Positions 51,101 to 64,000 of a DNA stretch of 64,000 nucleotides are shown here, in pieces. Origin of the DNA: Moesziomyces globuligerus (Eukaryota > Basidiomycota > Ustilaginomycetes > Ustilaginales > Ustilaginaceae); assembly GCA_030849465.1 (NCBI GenBank), contig JARVLF010000002.1, positions 513,328-577,327 of the forward strand. Direction: 5' to 3'. Numbering within the stretch: position 1 is the first letter of the stretch; each line of letters starts with the position of its first letter. The translations under genes were made by a program, and so were the position numbers. The notes beneath the pieces were generated by a model. It saw only the letters and a list, made by a program, of their open reading frames with translations, was not told where the DNA came from and did no database searches.

Positions 51101-52429
51101 ATGGGACTTTCGGGCCCAAAGCAGAAACAGCGACTGGTGGGCTCGGCCAGCACGCGCAACACCGCCTGGCTCAACGATGCATCGGCACCAGGCCAACGTA
51201 TGCTCGCTCAAATGGGCTGGTCCGCGGGACAGAGCCTGGGTCTCACCATGCCCGGTCTGACCGAGAACCTCAAGGTCGCCTACAAGATGGACAACAAGGG
51301 TATCGGTGCACAGCGACACGAGCGAGAGGCCAGAGCCAACGGCAAAGACATCTGGGTCGGTGGTGGTGGCGATCTCGGTAGCTTGTTCGAACGCCTCAAC
51401 GCTGCTAACGCCGCCTCTTCATCCAATTCGGCCGCAGCATCTTCTCCGTCCAGCGACGCTGGCGGCGACAACGACAAGACGGCGAAGAAGGCCAAGAAGG
51501 ACAAAAAGGAAAAGAAGGACAAGACGGAAAAGAAGAACAAACGGAACACAGACGCCGAAGCTCGGTCTTCCGACTCCAGCGATGGCAAGGCCGAGAAGAA
51601 GCGCAAGCGAGACGCAGGCAACGAACCGACCGATGACACGGGCAAGAAGAGCAAGAAGGACAAGAAGAGCAAGAAGAGCAAAGACGCTAAGGATAAAGCG
51701 GGGGAACCTTCCAGATCGAAGCGGAGCAAACGTGCACTGGAAAAGCAGAAGGACGAGGCTCCTGCCGCGATCAACGAGATCAAGACAGAAACGACACCAG
51801 CCCGACCAGTCAGGTTAGCGCACCGAGCCAAATTCTTGCGAGCAAAACGCATGGTCTCTGCTTCGGATCTAGCGAGCGTCAATGAGATCCTCGGCATTGC
51901 CTCGACGCCTTCTTCGTCCACAGCCGGCACTCCTCTATCCGGATCCGGCACAGCGACCCCCATCGTCGCAACCGTCAAGACGTATCCAGGGCCCGGCGGA
52001 AGCGAAATCGCCTTGGTGGATGTCGACCGTCGACTCCAAGCCGAACAGATCGTGCAAGTCGAGTCCGAATCGCCAACGGACAAGGACAACGCCAGTGAAA
52101 GGAAGAAGAGCAAGAAGGAAAAGAAGCACAAAAAGAGCGACGAGGATGGCAAGGATGGCAAGTCCAAGTCCAAGAAGCGCAAGTCGGGTCTCTCGGTCGA
52201 GGACGAGGCCGCGTCCCCGAGTCAAACGCAAGCCGAAGTCGCAGAGGTAGCAGCTGCAGCAGCTGCCGAGGAAAAGGAGAAGGCGACGCAGATCGGCACC
52301 AACACGCAAGGACTCTTTGTCTTCGAATACCTCAATCGTCGCTTGATGATGCGCAAAGCGCAGATCGCCAAGCAGAAGAAGGCCGATCACGAGGCCATCT
52401 TTGCCCGCGCGGCTCGCGTCGGTGCGTAG
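51101..52429 (+). CDS. PXR1: G-patch nucleolar protein Pxr1/PinX1-like, 442 aa
   Basis: The N-terminus MGLSGPKQKQRLVGSASTRN-TAWL matches the invariant start of the Pxr1/PinX1 family. A G-patch follows at about 27-70 (GQRMLAQMGWSAGQSLG and NKGIGA). Residues ~125-210 and ~330-370 are Lys/Glu/Asp-rich KKxKKDKK-type tracts typical of nucleolar targeting. A conserved short block FLRAKRMVSASDLASVNEIL lies near 247-266. Yeast Pxr1 helps rRNA and snoRNA processing as a G-patch partner of the helicase Prp43; PinX1 inhibits telomerase. This is the last recognisable core gene before the subtelomere. The ATG at 51,101 is unambiguous. Confidence 0.92.
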   Translation: MGLSGPKQKQRLVGSASTRNTAWLNDASAPGQRMLAQMGWSAGQSLGLTMPGLTENLKVAYKMDNKGIGAQRHEREARANGKDIWVGGGGDLGSLFERLNAANAASSSNSAAASSPSSDAGGDNDKTAKKAKKDKKEKKDKTEKKNKRNTDAEARSSDSSDGKAEKKRKRDAGNEPTDDTGKKSKKDKKSKKSKDAKDKAGEPSRSKRSKRALEKQKDEAPAAINEIKTETTPARPVRLAHRAKFLRAKRMVSASDLASVNEILGIASTPSSSTAGTPLSGSGTATPIVATVKTYPGPGGSEIALVDVDRRLQAEQIVQVESESPTDKDNASERKKSKKEKKHKKSDEDGKDGKSKSKKRKSGLSVEDEAASPSQTQAEVAEVAAAAAAEEKEKATQIGTNTQGLFVFEYLNRRLMMRKAQIAKQKKADHEAIFARAARVGA

Positions 52430-53390: not shown

Positions 53391-53436
53391 GGGTTAGGGT
53401 TTAGTGTTAGGGTTGCAGCGGATACAGGTTAGGGTT
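53391..53436 (+). repeat. Degenerate interstitial telomere repeat
   Basis: TTAGGG occurs at 53,393-53,398, 53,407-53,412 and 53,429-53,434, with TTTAG and GGTT remnants between. The G-rich strand orientation matches the terminal arrays. It marks the start of the repeat-built subtelomere. Confidence 0.75.
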
Positions 53437-53513
53437 CCAGATCCTTTTGACGGTGGGTTTCCAACTTTTGGACGCGCTTGGCATCCAGCGCTCCCTGGTC
53501 TGCCCTCATGGAA

Positions 53514-53754
53514 GACGGTCCAATTCAAAAATCTGACGCGTTGAATTTCACAGGAAGACAGTCCGCTTCAAAAATCAAAACAGTCTGCTTCAAAAATCAA
53601 GACGGTCCACTTCAGAAATAAGGACGGTCTGCTTCAAAAATGGAGACGGTCCACTACAGTCAGAGAGACAGTCCGCTTAAAAAATGGAGACGGTCTACTA
53701 CAGTCAGAGAGACGGTCCACTACAGTTGGTGAGATGGTCAGCTACAAAAGGGAG
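53514..53754 (+). repeat. 22-bp tandem repeat array (consensus GAcGGTCcgCTtCAaaAAT)
   Basis: Units begin at 53,514, 53,535, 53,557, 53,579, 53,601, 53,623, 53,645, 53,667, 53,689, 53,711 and 53,733. Nine successive units are exactly 22 bp, and the first is 21 bp. Most start GACGGTC or GACAGTC. The fifth to eighth exact units (53,645-53,732) alternate between CTACAGTCAGAGA-type and CTTAAAAAATGGA-type ends, hinting at a 44-bp higher-order unit. The array ends 75 bp before the ATG of the 938-aa zinc-finger gene, so it occupies its promoter or leader. Confidence 0.95.
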
Positions 53755-53829
53755 ACCGTCAAGGGCACGTAGCAGAGATGTGCACCCGTCAATGCCCATC
53801 ACATCACCCACTCCCCTCCGCCAGCCAAT

Positions 53830-56646
53830 ATGTCACGGACAACCTGCCCTGTTTGCGGTCTCTCCTATGCGGCAACAAACATCACCAATCATTTGCGCAA
53901 GGCGCACAGCGGTGCACACGTCAGTCAGGAGGCTGCTGCTGCTGTTGGGCTGGTTGCATGCCAGTGCGGCCAGGTAGTGGTGAATGCTGCGGCACTGCGC
54001 AAGCACCAGGGTATCCGTAAGTGCCAGGGTGTACGGTCCCAGCCCACAGCAGCAGTAGCTGCAGCAGCAGAGGATTTTGCTCCAGCACAGTCAGAATCAG
54101 CACCGGCAGAGCAGGCAGCAGCCGTCATTGTGGCAGCTGCATCAGCGCTGGCGCAGGCTCTGGCCCCGCTGCCACCTCCAAGTGCAAGCCCAGCACCCGT
54201 GCACACAGCATCACCATCTCCCAGCTCACCACTGGCCCCAGAGGCAACAGGCACGGAGGCAGATGTGGAGGAGGAGAATTTCCAGGAAATTGACGCATCT
54301 TCTGGTCTGGTGCCCAGCCTGCCTCCGAGCCCAATCTTGGATTTTCCAGCGGAGACACACGGCTCTGATTCTGAGCGGGAGCCAGATGTGGATCCAGAGC
54401 CAGAGTCTGGGCAAGACAGAGACGGAGACAGAGACGGACTGGAGATGGACATTTCCCTGGAAATTGACGTGTCTCCTGGTCTTGTGCCCAGCCTATCTCC
54501 ACATGGACCTGACACCAACACGGACTCTGACCAGGAGTCGGATGGAGAAGAAGACAGAGAGACGCTACCGTATCTTCCCCAAGAAGGACCTGCGGCACCA
54601 ACACAAGCACATCCCCAGCATATGCTAGAGCTGCAAGATGTTCAAGACATGCCAGCAGACGGTATTGTGGTACTGCTGCCTGCTCTTGACACCGCTGAGG
54701 AGGAGGCAGAAGCACCGTCTGCACCTCAGCTGGTGCTGGACACAGGGGAGCAGCTTCCAGAACTCCCGCCTATCCCAGCCATGGCACCAATTTCCAACTG
54801 GGACGTGCCTGTCCACACGGATGTGGACTCCTTTGCGGTGACAATTTCTCCTGCCAGCATGCTTCAGATTTTTCCAGCTGGCTGCTACGCGTCCTTGATC
54901 AGCCATGCACCTGATTTCAAGGACATGCACGTCTTTGACAATTGGGTCTATTTTGCCGAGCTCAAGGTGGTCTTCCGCTTTGAACCGCAGTTCAAGCTCC
55001 CCCTTGTAGCACGGCTGCAGGGACCGCCACAACACGCCATCCTTGTCCCCTCTGAACACCCCAAGACGCTCACCTTTGGAGAGCTGCGGGTGGAGATCAG
55101 CATCCTGGTGGAGGCGCTGCAGGACATAGGCTGCCAGAGTGTACGCATGGGTGCGTACGGCTTCAAGGTGCCCATCCACCGCTTCCTGGATCCAGCTGCG
55201 CTAGCAGAGCATCCAATGCAGGCGTTCAATGTGTTTGACATTGGCTGCACGGTGGACACAGGCCACGTCACACTGCTTGCACCCAAAACAAAGAAGGGCG
55301 GCTACAAGCAGTATCCCAGCGCTCTGCGCATTGGCCGTGGTTTTGGCAGTGTGGAGCTGAGGTGGACTCAACGTGCAGATGGAATTTCCCATTTCAAGGC
55401 ATATTCCAAACTCACGCACCTGCTCAAAGCCGGAGCAGCAGGTGCCGGGCAGGGAGGTCAGCCGATGATCATGAAGACGGTGAAAGACCGCATTGCCACA
55501 CTGCAGAGGTGGAAAGAGCGCGTCTCTGGCACAGCACCAGAGGTGGGCAGCGGCATCCGGCTGGAGCTCACCGTGCAAGCGGCCACCATGCAGCAGGCGC
55601 AGCAAGTGGCAAAGGCAAGCCGCTTCCTTGATCCACGGTACCTGTTCACCGCACAAGCAGGAGTGCAGCAGCTGCTGACGCACACCATCAAGAAAGAAGA
55701 CATGTTCAGGGATCTTGACGTGCTGCTTGCTGTTGCAGAGCAGAAGCAGCTCTTCCAGGGCAACAGCAGCAAGCAGTCCACACGGCTGCAGCGGCAAGCC
55801 GTGGTGGACCTATACAATGCAATGGGTTGGCATCCGGGAAGACGGCCCACAGCGCTGGACAGTCCCACCGCATGGTGGGTGTCCAACCAAGCTGCGGTGG
55901 ATCTGGCGCAAGAGCTGGAGCGGTTCAGCACGCCCAAGCGGACCAAGAATTTGTTTGGGCACATTCAAATCCACCTGTGGTGCCAGGGTTGCCGGCGCGT
56001 GGGCACGTACATCCTCTGTGGAGGTGCCCATCAGTTCCGCATCCGCTGCACTGAGTGCCGAGCCACCCTTGGCGCGCAGAAATTCCGCATGCACATTGCC
56101 ACGCTGGCATTCAACCGGCAGCTGGGCGTTGACCTCAGCACACTCATTGTGGATCCAGCACGGCTGCTGTTTGCAAGCATACCTGCAGACCAAGCTGTCC
56201 GCAAGCTCAGCCAGCGGAGGGACCTCAGCGGTCTTGTCCGCACGCATGAGTTTGCCAGCATGCGCGAGTCCATGCTGGAGTGCCTCTCCTTTGCGTTGGA
56301 AGATCAACACGGTGGGCCAGGTCCCATTGAGATCCAGGAGGCAGCAACAGACTGGCTGCGGGACAACACTCTGGCAGTGGAGCATCACATTGGTGCACGG
56401 AGCAGGGTTGCTGTCCATGCCTGCATCAACAAGCTGGCTGTGCGTGATGCAGAGCTCAGCACAGAGGAGGAGGTCTTGCTGCTGCACGGTGTGGCAGGTG
56501 CGTTCAACACTCACATTGCCCACCTCATGCTTCTGCGCAGAGCGTGGTCCTGCCAGGTCATTCCGGTTGGCAGCGTTGGGCCATATGTGGGCCTTGTCAA
56601 GCTTATGGGTGATGGATACGAGGTGCTGACACACTCTAGGCAGTAG
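53830..56646 (+). CDS. Subtelomeric zinc-finger protein with OTU-like C-terminus lacking catalytic residues, 938 aa
   Basis: A single exon from ATG 53,830. A C2H2 finger (C6, C9, H21, H26) is followed by a second Cys/His cluster (C44, C46, H59, C65). Residues 70-340 are Ala/Pro/Glu/Asp-rich and acidic. Residues ~350-700 form a folded core colinear with the 668-aa protein on the other strand; shared landmarks are DNWVYF/KDWVYI, LVPSEHPK/LVYPSEYPK, FDIG/FDVG, HVTL, RGFGSVEL/AGYGSVKM, RLELT/RLEVT and AMGWHPG/ALGWNPG. A zinc-ribbon-like site has C718, C721, C740 and C743. Residues ~807-938 align with the OTU domain of the paralogue, but S814 and G929 replace the catalytic Cys and His. I infer a DNA-binding, non-proteolytic family member. 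No known family is recognised for the core. Confidence 0.8.
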   Translation: MSRTTCPVCGLSYAATNITNHLRKAHSGAHVSQEAAAAVGLVACQCGQVVVNAAALRKHQGIRKCQGVRSQPTAAVAAAAEDFAPAQSESAPAEQAAAVIVAAASALAQALAPLPPPSASPAPVHTASPSPSSPLAPEATGTEADVEEENFQEIDASSGLVPSLPPSPILDFPAETHGSDSEREPDVDPEPESGQDRDGDRDGLEMDISLEIDVSPGLVPSLSPHGPDTNTDSDQESDGEEDRETLPYLPQEGPAAPTQAHPQHMLELQDVQDMPADGIVVLLPALDTAEEEAEAPSAPQLVLDTGEQLPELPPIPAMAPISNWDVPVHTDVDSFAVTISPASMLQIFPAGCYASLISHAPDFKDMHVFDNWVYFAELKVVFRFEPQFKLPLVARLQGPPQHAILVPSEHPKTLTFGELRVEISILVEALQDIGCQSVRMGAYGFKVPIHRFLDPAALAEHPMQAFNVFDIGCTVDTGHVTLLAPKTKKGGYKQYPSALRIGRGFGSVELRWTQRADGISHFKAYSKLTHLLKAGAAGAGQGGQPMIMKTVKDRIATLQRWKERVSGTAPEVGSGIRLELTVQAATMQQAQQVAKASRFLDPRYLFTAQAGVQQLLTHTIKKEDMFRDLDVLLAVAEQKQLFQGNSSKQSTRLQRQAVVDLYNAMGWHPGRRPTALDSPTAWWVSNQAAVDLAQELERFSTPKRTKNLFGHIQIHLWCQGCRRVGTYILCGGAHQFRIRCTECRATLGAQKFRMHIATLAFNRQLGVDLSTLIVDPARLLFASIPADQAVRKLSQRRDLSGLVRTHEFASMRESMLECLSFALEDQHGGPGPIEIQEAATDWLRDNTLAVEHHIGARSRVAVHACINKLAVRDAELSTEEEVLLLHGVAGAFNTHIAHLMLLRRAWSCQVIPVGSVGPYVGLVKLMGDGYEVLTHSRQ

Positions 56647-56710
56647 GAGAATATCATTTTGTTCACGTGTGTTTGTGCAAGCTGAACAGTGGTCCGGGTG
56701 AGCTGGATGA

Positions 56711-56960
56711 GAGCTGGGGGTACTGTGTCCAAATTTTCATTTTGGCAGGGGAAGTTGGAATTTTGAGGCGGTACCCCCAATGGGCACGCTCTTTCCAGGT
56801 GGAGGGGGTACCGCGTCAAAATTTTCACTTTGGCTCGGGAAAGTTGAATTTGGAGGCAATACCCCCAGATGGGCGCGCTCTTTCCAGGTGGAGGGGGTAC
56901 CGCGTCAAAATTTTCACTTTGGCTTGGGAAAGTTGAGTTTGGAGACGGGACCCCCGCCTC
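56711..56960 (+). repeat. 89-bp tandem repeat, nearly three copies
   Basis: Copies start at about 56,711, 56,800 and 56,889. Each contains GGGGGTAC, GTC-AAATTTTCA-TTTGG, a GGGAAGTTG-like segment and, except in the truncated third copy, TGGGC-CGCTCTTTCCAGG. The array ends just before the ATG of the broken gene at 56,977, which suggests it was its promoter repeat. Confidence 0.9.
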
Positions 56961-56976
56961 ATCTCCATCCGTCAAC

Positions 56977-57444
56977 ATGCCAGCAAAAACACCTGAAGCA
57001 ATTGCCCGCAAGAAGACGGCAAGGAAGGTCCGTGAAGCAGCTCAACGGCAACTATACCAGCAAAGCAAGCAGGAGGAACTTGCAATCACCGTGGATCCCA
57101 TACCTGGCTGGCAGAAGGAGCACTGGACCGAGGGTACCCAGCTTCAAGTCATCGGAGAGCCGCAGCCCGGATGTGCTGTTCCCAATCTCACACTCATGGA
57201 CGGCAGCAACCACAAGGTGATAGTACAACGGCTAGCTCCAACATCCTGGGAAGTGCATCGGAAGGCAAAAGCTAGCTCCAAGGCGGGCAGGATCCTCCTT
57301 GATGCTTATTTGGCCAAGAAGACCACGCAGACAGGAAAGGCAACACGGAGTGCCATACACAAAAACTTAGGGTTACATGTGGTTATTTTTTGCCTTTCAA
57401 AATTGCCTCAAATCTGTACTAATAGAAGTTGTAGAGCAGGTTGA
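56977..57444 (+). pseudogene. Truncated subtelomeric gene broken at a telomere-like junction
   Basis: From ATG 56,977 about 130 residues look like real protein: a basic start MPAKTPEAIARKKTARKVRE, then PGWQKEHWTEGTQLQVIGEP, LMDGSNHKVIVQRLAPTSW and AGRILLDAYLAKKT. At 57,367 the DNA becomes TTAGGGTTACA, the same junction found in the terminal repeats. The frame then runs on through noncoding sequence and stops at 57,444. I infer loss of the 3' part by breakage and telomere healing or by insertion of a telomere-flanked element. The protein family is not recognised. Confidence 0.6.
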
Positions 57445-57513
57445 GAGCTGCAGAATGCACTTGAGTTACGATTAAAGTTTAATCTGGGGGCCGTGATACG
57501 GGCCGTCAAAGTT
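57367..57513 (+). repeat. Diverged, shortened copy of the terminal subtelomeric unit
   Basis: It starts TTAGGGTTACA and shares CTCAAATCTGTACTAAT (57,407-57,423) and GGGCCGTCAAAGTT (57,500-57,513) with the terminal unit. Spacing between the latter two is almost the same (91 versus 90 bp), while the part nearest TTAGGG is shorter. It is an internal relic of the element now tandemly repeated at the end. Confidence 0.8.
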
Positions 57514-58381
57514 GACACCCAGGATTCTCTCGGGGAAGAAAAAAAAATATGAGCGTTTGCGTGGTGCCCATTCTGGGGTCAGGAACACATAGAAGAACCT
57601 CTAGGGAGTTGGTACACGCATGGGCAAGGTTGATATCTGGATGCGTTGCGGAGATACAGGGGGTCAAAGTTTGCTGAGCAGAGGTTCAGGGGTACCCCAA
57701 AGGTACTTTGAGGTAGGTTCCCAGTGGAGGTTAAACTTCAGCAAGCTGAAGTTGGGGGTACTTCAGCGGAGGTTGGGGGTACCTCAGCGGAGGTTGATGG
57801 ACGTTTGCAAGGTACCTTTTCCAACCAACCTAGCCTATTTCCAGGTTCAATGGCTGACCCAGGTTGAGGTTGACCGAGGTTGAAGGGTACTCTGAACGTA
57901 CGTTGAGGTAGGTTCACAGCGGAAGTTGAACTTCAGCAAGCTGAAGTTGAGGGTACTTCAGTGGAGGTTTGTGTACATTTGCAGGGTACCTTTTGTGACC
58001 AACCTCACCAACTTCCATGCCCAGCAATTGGTCTTGGTTGGGGTTGACCGAGGTTGGAACATACCTTCAACGTAGGTGGAATGGCAGATAAGGTACCTTG
58101 CAGAAGTACCCCCTGCAGTTGAACGTACGTTCCTTGTAGTACCTTTGTCCACCTTGAGTCCACCTTTGGTGAGCGTAGCCCTTGGTCAAAAGGTACCTTG
58201 AATGTAGGTTGAGGTTCAGGTGGGGTACTTCAACATACGCTGGGAAGGTACGTTCTACATGGGAAAGGAACTTCATTGAGAGGAAAAACCCTCCATGGGG
58301 AGGATGAAAAAACCTCTGATGAAGCTCCACAGGAACTTCAAGAAGGTATCTACAAGTATGTACAGGGGAGGCTCAAGGTAC
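57514..58381. other. Repeat-rich noncoding DNA
   Basis: No gene is supported. The sequence is filled with GGTACC, AGGTTG and GTACTT words and contains a duplicated ~195-bp segment with hairpins. Confidence 0.55.
57708..58010 (+). repeat. ~195-bp tandem duplication with a 20-bp inverted repeat
   Basis: TTGAGGTAGGTTC starts at 57,708 and again at 57,903. Each copy is followed by the inverted repeat AACTTCAGC-AA-GCTGAAGTT (57,734-57,753 and 57,929-57,948), then GGGTACTTCAG and GGTACCTTTT. The copies are diverged with small indels. Confidence 0.75.
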
Positions 58382-60388
58382 CTATGCAGCTGGGTTGAAC
58401 TTGAATACAAGTTCATAGTGGTTGCCAGTGTAGTAGAGAGCATGCCACTGGGTTGGAGCATGGACCTTGTTGACCTCAAAGTAGGTTCTGTCTGGGTTGA
58501 TGATGATCAAGCTGAGCTTGAAGATACTTACAGCAGCACTCAAGGTAGCATCATCCCCCCATGTACCCATCATTGCCATCTTGGTAAGGTAGGTTCTGAC
58601 TGTCAGAGGTTGGCCACCTCTGATGAAGGGATGTTGGGGTACCTCCTTGGTTGCCAAGATAGCTTCCACCATATCTTGATGAAGTTCAAGGTAGTTGACC
58701 ACCTCCAAACGTACCCTCCTGTGGGAACTTTGAACCCCATAGATGATCTCTGAAAGTACCCTGAACTGGCAGTTGCCATCCCCCTTGATGTAGCCAGAGG
58801 TCATCCTGTAGTTGTCTGTGCCCTGCAGCTCAGCAAGGAAGGTACCTTCAGGTACCATGTGGGACCCCTGTATATGGTACTTGTCCAGGTCCTGGTCGAG
58901 CTTCTTGGGAGGTTGGGAGGTACCATGGTGGGTACCATTGGCATCTGTGAAAGGGTCCTTCTGGAGGTAGCAGAACCTGGTCCAGTCTGCCTTGTACCTA
59001 TCCCAGATGAGCAGAGCTAGCTTTGCCTTGGTTCCAGCTGAGCCAAAAGGTACCTTGGTCCCACGTTCATTGTAGCACATGGACCTCCACAAGGTACCTC
59101 TCTTGTACATCTTCACACACCTCTCCATCTCCTGGAGGTGAACTTGCTCTGAGAGAGGGTCCTTGAACTTGAGGTTGGAGGTAGGTTGAACCTTGGTTGG
59201 AGCATCTATGTCCTGCTTGGAAGGTCTCCAAAGCCACCATTGAGGTTCCTTGAGGTGCCAGAAGGTGTTCTTCAGGCCTGGGTTCCAGCCCAAGGCCAAA
59301 CCCAGATCATAGATGATGTTCTTCCTGTTCTGACCCGCCTTCTTGTTACCATCACCCTTGAATACCCCCAGTTCCTGGGCCTTGTGAAGTACCTTGTTGA
59401 AGTTCTTGAGGTACCTTGTCTTCTTGATGAACATGACTCCAAGCTTGAGGTTCTCCATCTCTGGCTTGGAAGGCTTGAGGTACTCATGGAGGTTGAGAAG
59501 GGGGGTAGAAGATACCTTGGCTTGCGCTTCCTGGAGGGTCAAAGCTGAGCAAGTTACCTCCAACCTAAGTCCACCTAGATTTTCAGGCTTGAAGCTTTCC
59601 AGCTTCTCCACCTTCTTGAGGAAGCTGGTCTCCCTCTTCTTGCAGGATGCAAGGGTACTTGGATCATACAAGATACCTTTGCCAGAGGTAGCTTTGAGGC
59701 AGTGAACCAACCTTGGATAGACCTTGATCTTGAACAAGGTACCTCTGAACCTGACCTCCATCTTGACTGAGCCATACCCTGCACCAAGGGTCAGCAACAT
59801 AGGATACTGAGTGGAGGTTCCAGTACCTTTCTTGAAGTTGAGGAGCTTCACCAAGGTAACATGAGGTTGGGCAAAGTTCCTTCCAACATCAAAGAAGTTG
59901 GTGGCAGCAAGGGGGTGTTCTGGGTTCCCCAACCTAGGTAGAACCTGCATAACCTCGGTTTTCATACCATAGGCCTGGCATCTAACCCCATCCACCCTAG
60001 CTCCAAGTAGGCAAACATATAGTTCATACATGCTGACCACCTGGGAGCCATGGATCAGGCACTTGGGGTACTCTGAAGGGTACACAAGGTACCCATCAAG
60101 TTCAAGTTCCTGCAGCAAAGGTACCTTGTACCTAGGATGGATCTTGAGCAAGGTAGGTCCAGAACCTATGTACACCCAGTCCTTGTACAGCTCAACATCC
60201 CTGACCAGAGGTACATGGGATGTTAGCTGAACTGAGGCAAAGTACCCATAAAGGTCCAGAAGGTCCTTTGGATGTAGGGTCATGTTGTACCCATCAACAT
60301 CATATACAGGGTAGTTGTAGGTATGTTCCCAGAGCTTGGGGAACTCATGGTCCCCTAGAACCTCCAGATCCTCTGACTCCCAACTCAT
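58382..60388 (-). CDS. Subtelomeric OTU-domain protein (putative cysteine protease/deubiquitinase), 668 aa
   Basis: I use ATG 60,388, since the longer frame starts with TTG. Residues ~45-395 form the unrecognised core shared with the 938-aa protein (YKDWVYIGSG, LVYPSEYPKC, NFFDVG, PHVTLVKL, LGAGYGSVKMEV, LRLEVTCSALTLQEAQ, LGLALGWNPG). The segment 425-480 aligns with the zinc-ribbon region of the paralogue but lacks its CxxC pairs. The OTU domain spans about 532-668. KGDGNCQFRVLSEIIYG carries Asp537 and the nucleophile Cys540, VRLEVVNYL and GTWGDDATLSAAVSIFKL are the usual middle motifs, and GNHYELVF carries His657. The catalytic set looks complete, so activity on ubiquitin-like substrates is plausible. 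The gene body is saturated with GGTACC and its variants yet keeps one open frame, arguing for selection. Confidence 0.85.
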   Translation of the reverse strand: MSWESEDLEVLGDHEFPKLWEHTYNYPVYDVDGYNMTLHPKDLLDLYGYFASVQLTSHVPLVRDVELYKDWVYIGSGPTLLKIHPRYKVPLLQELELDGYLVYPSEYPKCLIHGSQVVSMYELYVCLLGARVDGVRCQAYGMKTEVMQVLPRLGNPEHPLAATNFFDVGRNFAQPHVTLVKLLNFKKGTGTSTQYPMLLTLGAGYGSVKMEVRFRGTLFKIKVYPRLVHCLKATSGKGILYDPSTLASCKKRETSFLKKVEKLESFKPENLGGLRLEVTCSALTLQEAQAKVSSTPLLNLHEYLKPSKPEMENLKLGVMFIKKTRYLKNFNKVLHKAQELGVFKGDGNKKAGQNRKNIIYDLGLALGWNPGLKNTFWHLKEPQWWLWRPSKQDIDAPTKVQPTSNLKFKDPLSEQVHLQEMERCVKMYKRGTLWRSMCYNERGTKVPFGSAGTKAKLALLIWDRYKADWTRFCYLQKDPFTDANGTHHGTSQPPKKLDQDLDKYHIQGSHMVPEGTFLAELQGTDNYRMTSGYIKGDGNCQFRVLSEIIYGVQSSHRRVRLEVVNYLELHQDMVEAILATKEVPQHPFIRGGQPLTVRTYLTKMAMMGTWGDDATLSAAVSIFKLSLIIINPDRTYFEVNKVHAPTQWHALYYTGNHYELVFKFNPAA

Positions 60389-61651
60389 CTCCAAGGTACT
60401 TTACCTGCAGCTGAAGTACCCAGGCAAGGTAGGTTGCAGAGCTTGAAGTTTGGTTGGAAAGGTAGTTGAAGCTTGTCTGAAGGTACCTGAGAATGAAGGT
60501 TGTGAAGATCAGAAAGAAGGTGGAGAAGTGATAAATAGGAAGGGAAGATGCAAATGACCAAAATGATGGCAAGAAATGTCTTTTGGCAAACCACAGTTGA
60601 GGTTGGACCTGGACTGCAACGTACGTTGAAGTTCCGCAAACCTACCTTCACCCATCTCTAGGTACCCTACAACCTCCCTCAGCAACAGAAACGTACAGCT
60701 GCAAACCAACTTTGAGATGCAGGTTTGCAGAGGTACATTCAACTGGGGTTCAGAGTCTGAACATACCGTCAACATACCTTTGCAACGTACCTTTCTATCA
60801 TTGAACTACCCATCAGAAGTTCAGCAAAGCTTAGTCAACGTACATTGGCTCTTTCCTTTCATCAAGTCACCTTCCAGAAGAGAGCACCCCAAAAGGTATG
60901 TTGACTTGCAGCAGACTTGCCTCAACCCCTGTCTGCATGTACCTGCCAAAGGTACCTCAACCTCTGCCAAGCTCAACAGCGCCAAGAGGAGACCTATGTT
61001 GCCTTGTAGCTTCAAGGACCTATAAAGTAGCAGCAAAGGTGGTATCAAGGGAGGGTTGCAAGTTCCTTCCATCCTACCTCAGTTGAGGTTGGGTGAGGTT
61101 TGAACATGGTGTACCCAGCAAATGTCCGATCCAACCTCCAAGCAACGTCCTGCTGGTATGCTGGGTGATGCGTAGCCTTAAATATAGCTGGATATACTTC
61201 AGAGAAGCAGTATTCAGCCAGTGTGATGGACAGCGCTGCTGGCAAAGTCTCTGATTGCTGCAACATGGTCAGCTATATCAGCTGTCAGGGGAAAGGCACA
61301 GCCGCAAGGCAAAAATCAGGAAAAATACATACAGGGCCAAAACATCAGTAAAGTGGAGTTCTAGTACGTTGGAATCAGTGTGCCAAATATGAATGCAGTA
61401 GCTCAAGTATATGGTGTGTGGATTGCAGCCAAAAAAGGGGTGTAAAAAATGGGCCAGAAAGCCATGAAAAAGCTTGTCAGGTCACTAAAAAAATCATAGA
61501 AAATCGTGGAAAAATGCTAGAGGGGCAGGGTAACTTCTAGCAGGCTCGTCTTGATCCAGTGGACGCGTTCAGGCTATAAAAACCCCAAAAAAGCGCGCGT
61601 CCATCTTCCTTCCTGACCACATCCATCTCCCTCCTCCTCAGCTCCTCCAAC
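60389..61651. other. Subtelomeric intergenic region, promoters of two divergent genes
   Basis: The left part (to about 61,100) is still rich in GGTACC, GTACGTT and AGGTTG words and should hold the promoter of the OTU gene. The right part is AT-rich with A runs (61,430-61,520) and ends with a TATA box for the small Cys-rich gene. No gene is supported inside. Confidence 0.5.
61574..61581 (+). promoter_or_regulatory. TATA box of the small twin-CxxC gene
   Basis: TATAAAAA lies 78 bp upstream of the ATG at 61,652 and is followed by a pyrimidine-rich CATCTCCCTCCTCCTCAGC leader, a typical fungal promoter and start context. Confidence 0.6.
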
Positions 61652-62071
61652 ATGTCCTCAGCTTCTCCCCAGCCAGTCTATGGTCCCCAGCCTCAACCTG
61701 CCCCTCCTGCTAGGCCTTCTGGACGTGCTCCAGCCCTCTTGGTCCAGTTTCCCTGCCAGAGATGCATTGATGTTGGCAGAGGCCACAGATGCACCCCAGC
61801 ACCCAGCTCCAGGTCTCTGAAGTGCAAGAGATGCTTTGACCAAGGCCTCAGCCCCTGCAAGGTGGTGGAGACGCCTCAGGGCCTTCCTCAGCCCTCCTCC
61901 TCGTCGTCCAGGCCTGGCCAGCCCTGGCTGGAGTCAGACAAGAAGCTTGCCATCATCAAGAAGAAGGTACAGAAGCTTGCAGCCATGATCAGCCACATCT
62001 CCAACCCTGAGACCAGGGGCATGCTCTCTGAGCAAGTAGATGATGTTCTCAGTGTCTTCCCCACCCAGTAG
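61652..62071 (+). CDS. Small subtelomeric Cys-rich protein with two CxxC-x7/8-C motifs, 139 aa
   Basis: After a Pro/Gln/Ser-rich start, residues 35-47 read CQRCIDVGRGHRC and 58-69 read CKRCFDQGLSPC, so six Cys stand in two similar clusters. The C-x2-C-x7/8-C spacing recalls half-sites of fungal Zn2Cys6 DNA-binding domains, and together they may form one or two zinc sites. A Ser/Pro linker and a helical, Lys-rich C-terminus (KKLAIIKKKVQKLAAMISH, about 97-115) follow, which could dimerise. A TATA box and pyrimidine-rich leader support expression. No family name can be given; a DNA-binding or adaptor role is inference. Confidence 0.7.
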   Translation: MSSASPQPVYGPQPQPAPPARPSGRAPALLVQFPCQRCIDVGRGHRCTPAPSSRSLKCKRCFDQGLSPCKVVETPQGLPQPSSSSSRPGQPWLESDKKLAIIKKKVQKLAAMISHISNPETRGMLSEQVDDVLSVFPTQ

Positions 62072-62215
62072 CCTTGTCGCCATCATGTAGTGTAGCTCAC
62101 AATATGCCCTGACCCCCTGGATAAGTCAGGTTGCCTTGGGAGGCAGACCCAGCATAGCAATATATCACCATACCATGCCCCACCGCCCCCTGACTGCTCA
62201 GCACCATCACAGGGT
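62072..62215. other. 3' flank of the twin-CxxC gene up to the terminal repeats
   Basis: A short noncoding stretch that ends in AGGG just before TTTACAAGG, a degenerate version of the TTAGGG-TTACAAGG junction between terminal units. Confidence 0.5.
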
Positions 62216-63052
62216 TTACAAGGTGCGCCCCTTGGGGTTGGGATTTGACCACCTCTTTTTATGATGTTTATAGGTTACAAGGTTGTCTGATCTGATCTGC
62301 TCAACAATCTCAAATCTGTACTAATGGAATGTGTAGGGATACCCCCAAGGAAGCCACATGCAAAGTCTGACGTTACCACGTAACGCGGTTGCGGAGGTAT
62401 GGGCCGTCAAAGTTTCCAGTCCAGGTTCCTACCCAGGTTGAACCTGGCCCAACCTAGGTTGAACCTAGGTTCAACCCGGTCAAGGTAGGTTGGAGCCTGG
62501 TAACCTGGTGCAACCTAGGTACAACTAGGTTGAATGTCGATGAAGGTGGACCAACCTAGGTTGACATACTTTAACCTAGGATCATAGTACTTGAACCAAG
62601 TTCAACGTGGGCTCAACGTATGTTCAACATAGGTTGAAGATGGGTCTTGGGTATGGCCAGTCTGTGGCAACTTCTGCCGGTACCAGCACGGTAGCAGCCA
62701 GGTGCTGATAGTGTTGTATATTGGTCAGTGAGGAACGTATATGGATTGTGAGGATGGTGGTTGATGTGTTGGGTTGTTTGTGAGTGATGTGTATTGACAA
62801 CGGGAATGGATGTGGCCAGCTGCAATGGCTAGGGTGACTGTGCTGACTGAATTCCCAGGTTACATGACATATAAACTGTAACCAGGTCACATGACTAACT
62901 ATAAACTGTAATTTTGAAAATTCCCACGGCGCTGGACAGAAAATTTGGAAAATTAGGGTTAGGGTTAGGGTTAGGGTTAGGGTAGGGTTAGGGTTAGGGT
63001 TAGGGTAGGGTTAGGGTTAGGGTTAGGGTTAGGGTTAGGGTTAGGGTTAGGG
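62216..63052 (+). repeat. Terminal subtelomeric unit, copy 1 (837 bp)
   Basis: The unit starts TTACAAGGTGCGCCCC and runs through about 737 bp of unique sequence, then 100 bp of TTAGGG. The first third contains five AACCTAGG palindromic cores (62,451, 62,462, 62,512, 62,553, 62,573) among CAACCT/AGGTTG words. Copies 1 and 2 differ only at scattered bases and single-base indels. The 70- and 88-codon minus-strand frames recur in both copies only because the DNA is duplicated. Confidence 0.95.
62953..63052 (+). repeat. Internal telomere array 1 (TTAGGG)n
   Basis: About 100 bp of TTAGGG with two shortened TAGGG units. The G-rich strand points to the right, so the chromosome end lies beyond the right edge of the window. 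Confidence 0.97.
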
Positions 63053-63894
63053 TTACAAGGTGCGCCCCTTGGGGTTGGGATTTGACCACCTCTTTTTATG
63101 ATGTTTATAGGTTACAAGGTTGTCTGATCTGATCTGCTCAACAATCTCAAATCTGTACTAATGGAATGTGTAGGGATACCCCAAGGAAGCCACATGCAAA
63201 GTCTGACGTTACCACGTAACGCGGTTGCGGAGGTATGGGCCGTCAAAGTTTCCCAGTCCAGGTTCCTACCCAGGTTGAACCTGGCCCAACCTAGGTTGAA
63301 CCTAGGTTCAACCCGGTCAAGGTAGGTTGGAGCCTGGTAACCTGGTGCAACCTAGGTACAACTAGGTTGAATGTCGATGAAGGTGGACCAACCTAGGTTG
63401 ACATACTTTAACCTAGGATCATAGTACTTGAACCAAGTTCAACGTGGGCTCAACGTATGTTCAACATAGGTTGAAGATGGGTCTTGGGTATGGCCAGTCT
63501 GTGGCAACTTCTGCCGGTACCAGCACGGTAGCAGCCAGGTGCTGATAGTGTTGTATATTGGTCAGTGAGGAAAGTATATGGATTGTGAGGATGGTGGTTG
63601 ATGTGTTGGGTTGTTTGTGAGTGATGTGTATTGACAACGGGAATGGATGTGGCCAGCTGCAATGGCTAGGGTGACTGTGCTGACTGAATTCCCAGGTTAC
63701 ATGACATATAAACTGTAACCAGGTCACATGACTAACTATAAACTGTAATTTTGAAAATTCCCACGGCGCTGGACAGAAAATTTGGAAAATTAGGGTTAGG
63801 GTTAGGGTTAGGGTTAGGGTAGGGTTAGGTTAGGGTTAGGGTAGGGTTAGGGTTAGGGTTAGGGTTAGGGTTAGGGTTTGGGTTAGGGTTAGGG
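63053..63894 (+). repeat. Terminal subtelomeric unit, copy 2 (842 bp)
   Basis: Near-identical to copy 1. Differences include one fewer C at about 63,180, one more C in TTTCCCAG near 63,250, and AAAGTATATGG in place of AACGTATATGG. It closes with its own TTAGGG array. Confidence 0.95.
63790..63894 (+). repeat. Internal telomere array 2 (TTAGGG)n
   Basis: About 105 bp of TTAGGG with variant units TAGGG, TTAGG and TTTGGG. The variants differ from those in array 1, so the arrays have evolved or been copied separately. Confidence 0.97.
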
Positions 63895-64000
63895 TTACAA
63901 GGTGCGCCCCTTGGGTTGGGATTTGACCACCTCTTTTTATGATGTTTATAGGTTACAAGGTTGTCTGATCTGATCTGCTCAACAATCTCAAATCTGTACT
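63895..64000 (+). repeat. Terminal subtelomeric unit, copy 3 (start only)
   Basis: The first 106 bp of a third unit, TTACAAGGTGCGCCCC onward, are cut by the window edge. The array therefore continues to the right. Confidence 0.95.

Follow-up and report, generated by a model that had tools for sequence, protein, structure and literature searches.

The 64,000-nucleotide stretch analyzed here (the window), taken from the right end of C2, one of the 24 contigs in the 18.5-Mb genome of Moesziomyces globuligerus, carries a truncated copy of a two-gene unit that we consider, with somewhat better than even confidence, to be a Y'-like unit riding on telomeres, spread by breakage, healing and capture of chromosome ends, whose two products, a putative scaffold protein and a dioxygenase-like protein, would guard the unit or the end.

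The window codes for two uninterrupted open reading frames on opposite strands, of 938 and 668 amino acids (the long and the short gene), which the earlier note on this DNA had interpreted as a protease and a pseudoprotease forming one system. We found instead that each gene sits in a unit of its own bounded by TTAGGG, and that the two units are stacked at one end, which is the reason why the genes adjoin (Table 1). Considering that the short gene is part of a separate TTAGGG-joined unit and that the stacking recurs on C21, this neighborhood is the result of stacking and does not represent an operon. Just inside the subtelomere, the window also codes for a lysine-rich G-patch protein (51101-52429, + strand; Pfam E=1.8e-9) that, in our estimation, resembles the telomerase-linked PinX1/Pxr1 family.

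Table 1. Features of the two stacked units, in window coordinates
Feature	Positions	Strand	Remarks
TTAGGG stub, proximal edge of the long-gene unit	53429..53434	+	read directly
Long-gene unit, cut here on its distal side; fixed proximal start TTCCAGATCC	53435..57366	+	other copies run past 57366
22-bp tandem repeats preceding the long gene	53555..53746	+	
Long gene, 938 aa: zinc fingers, acidic linker, core, Cys4 ribbon, pseudo-OTU	53830..56646	+	
Two C2H2/C2HC-like zinc fingers, aa 1-70	53830..54039	+	sub-threshold Pfam zf-C2H2, E=0.067; Cys/His pattern conserved among relatives
Core common to both proteins, aa 316-700	54775..55929	+	high-confidence model
Cys4 ribbon, aa 701-770	55930..56139	+	CxxC...CxxC common to the intermediate proteins P0011, P0012 and P0016 and the C17 copy
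Pseudo-OTU domain, aa 771-938	56140..56643	+	S814 codon 56269-56271; G929 codon 56614-56616
89-bp tandem repeat separating the two genes of the unit	56716..56955	+	
326-aa dioxygenase-like gene, truncated; start and first ~130 codons	56977..57366	+	
TTAGGG, junction of the long-gene and short-gene units	57367..57372	+	read directly
Short-gene unit; fixed proximal start TTACATGTGG; distal edge set at the start of the next unit	57373..62215	+	
Short gene, 668 aa: core and OTU, Cys and His intact	58382..60388	-	
OTU domain of the short gene	58385..58840	-	Cys540 codon 58769-58771; His657 codon 58418-58420

Distribution of the units at chromosome ends

Matches to the long protein were scored for 49 of 69 candidates, a number that represents a lower bound. 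Leaving out a divergent paralogue on C17, all 48 matches read outward, at 24 contig ends, and the 47 found on contigs of known extent are at most 15.4 kb from an end (the extent of C4 is unknown). The confinement to chromosome ends raised in the earlier note therefore held within this genome for every one of the 48 long-type matches (including the one on C4), and so did its idea of an element-like repeat. The start of the unit, TTCCAGATCC, occurs at 67 genome sites when up to two mismatches are allowed, all of them (67/67) in outward orientation and spread over 32 of the 48 contig ends, or 33 when start sites and protein matches are combined. On contigs of known extent, 54 of these sites are located no more than 16,849 bp from an end. 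The other 13 are on C3, C4, C6, C7 and C11, whose extents are unknown; three of them (two on C6 and one on C7) are within 6.2 kb of the first base of the contig, and the other 10 have high coordinates, compatible with a location at the right end but no proof of it.

The boundary preceded by TTAGGG was recovered with at most one mismatch at 49 of the 67 sites, 36 of them being exact. Among 35 boundary sites whose preceding DNA was read, a tally that enters array copies singly, the boundary directly follows full TTAGGG in 23 cases (from one to at least six repeats), a partial repeat in 11, and none in one (C19:733060), with flanks that differ from site to site, arrays and duplicated stretches excepted. 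Partial repeats as short as GG or GGG may in some cases be fortuitous. The complete long-gene unit measures ca. 5.4 kb (coordinates on C1). Sixteen distinct distal endpoints are at TTAGGG or part thereof, or within three bases of it, while five are away from it (54437, with GG only, 53652, 55700, 56579, and 56694). Hence, the unit presents the TTAGGG-bounded, outward copies at many chromosome ends that are characteristic of Y'-like elements. Some copies form regular arrays, one on C15 (2415716-2426738) with seven truncated long-gene copies spaced 1,556 bp apart, two of which were compared and are identical, and another on C16 (4859-11143) with three truncated copies spaced 1,995 bp apart, of equal scores and with DNA that is not identical. 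The C15 array suggests a recent amplification, perhaps through telomeric circles or break-induced replication.

The short OTU gene, a paralogue, belongs to another unit of this type, separate from that of the long gene and less frequent. The start of this unit, TTACATGTGG, was found at eight genome sites, and the gene is intact at just two ends, those of this window and of C21, where the long gene is truncated. On C21, the long-gene unit is cut at 54506 and followed by GGTTAGGGTTAGGG and then by the short-gene unit. C20, C17, and C14 have truncated short-gene units that end distally against GGGTTAGGG and whose proximal edge has no preceding TTAGGG. Within the short-gene unit of the window there are diverged AAGGTACCTT/AACGTAGGTTGA-type repeats (57680-58250 and 60100-60440), partly palindromic by eye, and in its distal part an ORF of 139 aa rich in Cys (CQRC...CKRC...C; 61652-62071, + strand) with no Pfam match. 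The remainder of the window (62216-64000) is occupied by two copies of an 837-bp TTAGGG-ended repeat and the start of a third at the contig end. The start of this repeat has 64 genome sites when up to two mismatches are allowed, and these are densely arrayed at the right end of C12.

Protein architecture and relatives

The colinear core that the earlier note had aligned by eye in both proteins was recovered by BLASTP (E=2e-47), extends over approximately 370 residues, and spans 365 columns in the HHalign profile comparison. Among relatives, its Lys, Tyr, His, Arg, and Glu residues are invariant or nearly so. In the short protein, an OTU domain was recognized by Pfam and has the OTU fold, with Cys540 and His657 in register with the other OTU rows; judging from its sequence, this protein looks like an active OTU cysteine protease. 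The C terminus of the long protein is also an OTU homologue with that fold, although no OTU domain was identified by Pfam, and the replacement of the catalytic Cys by S814 and of the His by G929 that had been proposed was found in all 14 full-length copies. In the alignment of the long-type clade, the Cys is present in none of nine rows and the His in none of 10, counting rows with a residue at the site. Therefore, a zinc-finger form of the family that has lost the catalytic residues does lie beside an active-looking OTU form, as had been noticed. The direct alignment of the long C terminus with the short protein, on the other hand, found no profile support when the clade of the short protein was used (HHalign probability 0.05); the two are bridged by intermediate proteins, one of them in this genome, made of the core and an active-looking OTU (HHalign score 79, against 23 for the best of 100 shuffles). 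The C17 paralogue (L011:406-2760, - strand) is intact and includes the core, a Cys4 ribbon, a charged linker, and an active-looking OTU (Pfam E=2.9e-13). Its neighbor (L011:3476-4111) looks, by eye, like a fragment of a retrotransposon integrase.

Structure prediction gave an OTU fold in both modeled C termini. With Foldseek, the best 50 of 449, 196, and 325 matches (both models against the PDB, and the long protein against BFVD) were OTU domains; among the matches listed, BFVD also returned long alignments of low TM score, which were not taken as homology. OTUD3, OTUD1, and the nairovirus OTU share the fold of both C termini, and the short protein retains their catalytic Cys and His; the long clade differs from these deubiquitinases in lacking both residues and in having zinc fingers, core, and ribbon ahead of the OTU. 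We do not call the fold of the core new, because the VIA-align rows spanned the OTU part alone. A possible Rep/HUH-like resemblance of the core had no supporting Pfam match. Transposase, reverse transcriptase, and recombinase domains gave no significant Pfam match in the long and short proteins, their relatives, or the 326-aa protein; the recombinase zinc ribbon PF13408 was touched by one of 21 rows at a nonsignificant E value (0.2). The PHROGs scan yielded scattered weak matches; in the best of them, a single row out of 21 hit a family annotated as "DNA binding protein" (E=0.0031).

Relatives number 29 (P0003-P0031), 13 of which carry an organism name and belong to Pseudozyma flocculosa, Ustilago trichophora, Kalmanozyma brasiliensis, Tilletia controversa, and Ustilago sp., all of them smut fungi or close kin. 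No Ustilago maydis protein is among these 13. The long-type clade is conserved across species, with identities between species (eight relatives) of 36-69% for the pseudo-OTU and 42-75% for the core.

The second gene of the unit

Downstream of 13 of the 14 full-length long genes, the next gene is one of 326 aa, complete in six cases and truncated in seven, the 14th unit being cut before it. In the window, this gene is cut short and joined through TTAGGG to the next unit. A genome search for it gave 20 matches: 16 are located at ends, seven of which are full length (six of these seven downstream of a full-length long gene), and four divergent ones are deep within contigs, with 27-41% identity. 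Among the seven complete copies, eight of 16 variants change the protein. The product has no Pfam match and no PDB sequence match, the PF12851 profile has no match anywhere in the genome, and the relative on C19 (41% identity) matches PF20515 (Tet-like 2OG-Fe(II) oxygenase) below the cut-off (E=0.21). Both proteins share the HxD...H...R motif (H236, D238, H282, and R294), in which R294 would take the role of the motif Arg. The role of HxD and the later His in TET/JBP-like dioxygenases is described in passages of PMC12730594. We treat TET-like dioxygenase as a weak lead for this protein, not as an assignment to that family.

Selection on the long gene

The long gene is under purifying selection in its full-length copies. 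The 14 copies present 167 single-base codon variants, 76 of them nonsynonymous versus 113.2 expected (none of 2,000 draws was as low), and no copy contains a stop; a further locus (L044) has one TGA. Among the variants restricted to full-length copies, 42 of 88 are nonsynonymous versus 59.0 expected (P 0.0002); those restricted to truncated or internally deleted copies, which include one stop, give 51 of 84 versus 56.9 (P 0.10). However, the contrast between full-length and truncated copies is not clean, since the first 389 codons of truncated copies are also depleted in nonsynonymous changes (32/56 versus 39.4; P 0.025), perhaps a depletion that dates from before truncation. The contrast is located in codons 390-938, with 22 of 48 versus 31.4 (P 0.003) in full-length copies and 19 of 28 versus 19.2 (P 0.54) in truncated ones. 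For the pseudo-OTU alone (7/15, P 0.13) or the ribbon alone (6/10, P 0.40), the signal is not significant.

Spread of the unit

The unit probably spread through telomere breakage, healing, and capture, which we favor because of the fixed start with its telomere stub, the outward orientation, the distal truncation followed by TTAGGG, and the regular arrays. Breaks would arise at interstitial telomere tracts, telomerase would heal the broken ends, and the unit would be captured via break-induced replication or end joining. Since junctions with only GG or GGG, or with no repeat, provide no homology for telomere-telomere recombination, end joining or active joining would be needed for some copies. 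The long protein, which we infer to be a DNA- or chromatin-binding scaffold, would hold ubiquitin in its dead OTU without cleaving it, and together with the putative TET-like dioxygenase may counter silencing of the unit or aid in the maintenance of the end. Target-primed reverse transcription of the long-gene mRNA was rejected, given the orientation of the coding strand, opposite to that required, and the lack of a recognizable reverse transcriptase in the proteins searched.

The unit could also be a true telomere-specific mobile element, with its own proteins (zinc fingers, core and Cys ribbon, aided by the dioxygenase) joining it to broken or exposed ends and its start being the terminus recognized by the core, a possibility that we regard as rather unlikely. 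It would fit the invariant start at 67 sites in a single orientation, the junctions with arbitrary DNA at which the telomere repeat is partial or missing, the purifying selection on the coding sequence of full-length copies, the invariant or nearly invariant residues of the core, and, for what a nonsignificant match is worth, PF13408. Against it, the transposase, reverse transcriptase, and recombinase searches gave nothing significant, and a break-prone interstitial telomere would also yield a fixed start, as reported for the MoTeRs of Magnaporthe (PMC7367193). A bolder version, in which these units would be a new class of telomere-specific mobile elements without reverse transcriptase, the long protein joining broken ends and the TET-like dioxygenase erasing a silencing mark, is slightly less probable still.

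We give rather little credit to the proposal that the protease and the pseudoprotease act as a working pair at this chromosome end. The core and OTU domain that they have in common, and the two units stacked on C21 too, speak for it, but the genes belong to separate units with unlike boundaries, opposite strands, and unequal copy numbers, the C21 long gene is truncated, and an intact short gene shares a contig with only one of the 14 full-length long genes, namely the one described here. Least credible is that both are passive passengers, i.e., genes with a former host role that recombining ends now carry: many copies are truncated and the private variants of these show no significant depletion when the gene is taken in full, but the depletion in full-length copies, their lack of stops, and the conservation of the clade across species all argue against it.

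Comparison with known systems and significance

The nearest systems in behavior are yeast Y' elements and the UTASa and UTASb of U. maydis, which are, like the long-gene unit, multi-copy, subtelomeric, and protein-coding. According to passages of PMC10532341, amplified Y' copies have short telomere repeats between them, UTASa codes for a RecQ-like helicase, and UTASb for a conserved "core" and/or an OrsD domain. The long-gene unit differs in carrying zinc-finger/pseudo-OTU and dioxygenase-like genes, and neither of its two proteins has a helicase Pfam match, as would be expected of a telomere-linked unit with a RecQ-like helicase (TLH, UTASa). OrsD was matched by one of 21 rows (E=0.53), and a profile search of the genome found no match, as was also the case for the control genomes. 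For Sporisorium scitamineum, a section of PMC4466345 gives 35 subtelomeric helicase genes at 22 chromosome ends.

The MoTeRs of Magnaporthe and the FoTeRs of Fusarium, as far as excerpts describe them, resemble the long-gene unit in being embedded in telomere repeats in one orientation, with distal truncation followed by new telomere, and in forming arrays, and breakage at interstitial telomeres, healing, and capture have been reported for MoTeR ends (in part of PMC7367193). However, in the same source the 5' end of MoTeRs is closest to the chromosome end, whereas that of the long gene is proximal and its 3' side is truncated. With regard to telomeric non-LTR retrotransposons, no reverse transcriptase Pfam match was found in the long, short, and 326-aa proteins (ca. 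0.7 kb beyond the second gene lies outside the search), and the coding strand, expected to point inward, is outward in all 48 long-gene matches. The fungal DNA transposons carrying TET/JBP genes are similar in being repeated elements with a TET-like dioxygenase gene, or in our case a dioxygenase-like one, next to another gene. They have been assigned to named lineages of DNA transposons and are reported from Pucciniomycetes, Agaricomycetes, and Pezizomycetes (PMC12730594), and a word search of the main text of that paper for smut, Ustilag-, OTU, and subtelomer- gave no occurrence.

Among the open-licence papers searched, we found no description of the long-gene unit. To our knowledge, the cargo of fungal telomere-riding units consists of helicases or reverse transcriptases. 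Here, the cargo is a protein in which zinc fingers and a core precede a dead but conserved protease, beside a putative DNA-modifying enzyme, and the selection on full-length copies indicates that the long protein does something. The presence of active-looking, intermediate, and dead OTU forms in one genome offers what appears, from their sequences, to be a readable case of the passage from protease to pseudoprotease, and the long-gene unit provides a concrete system for how telomere-riding units acquire and retain chromosome ends.
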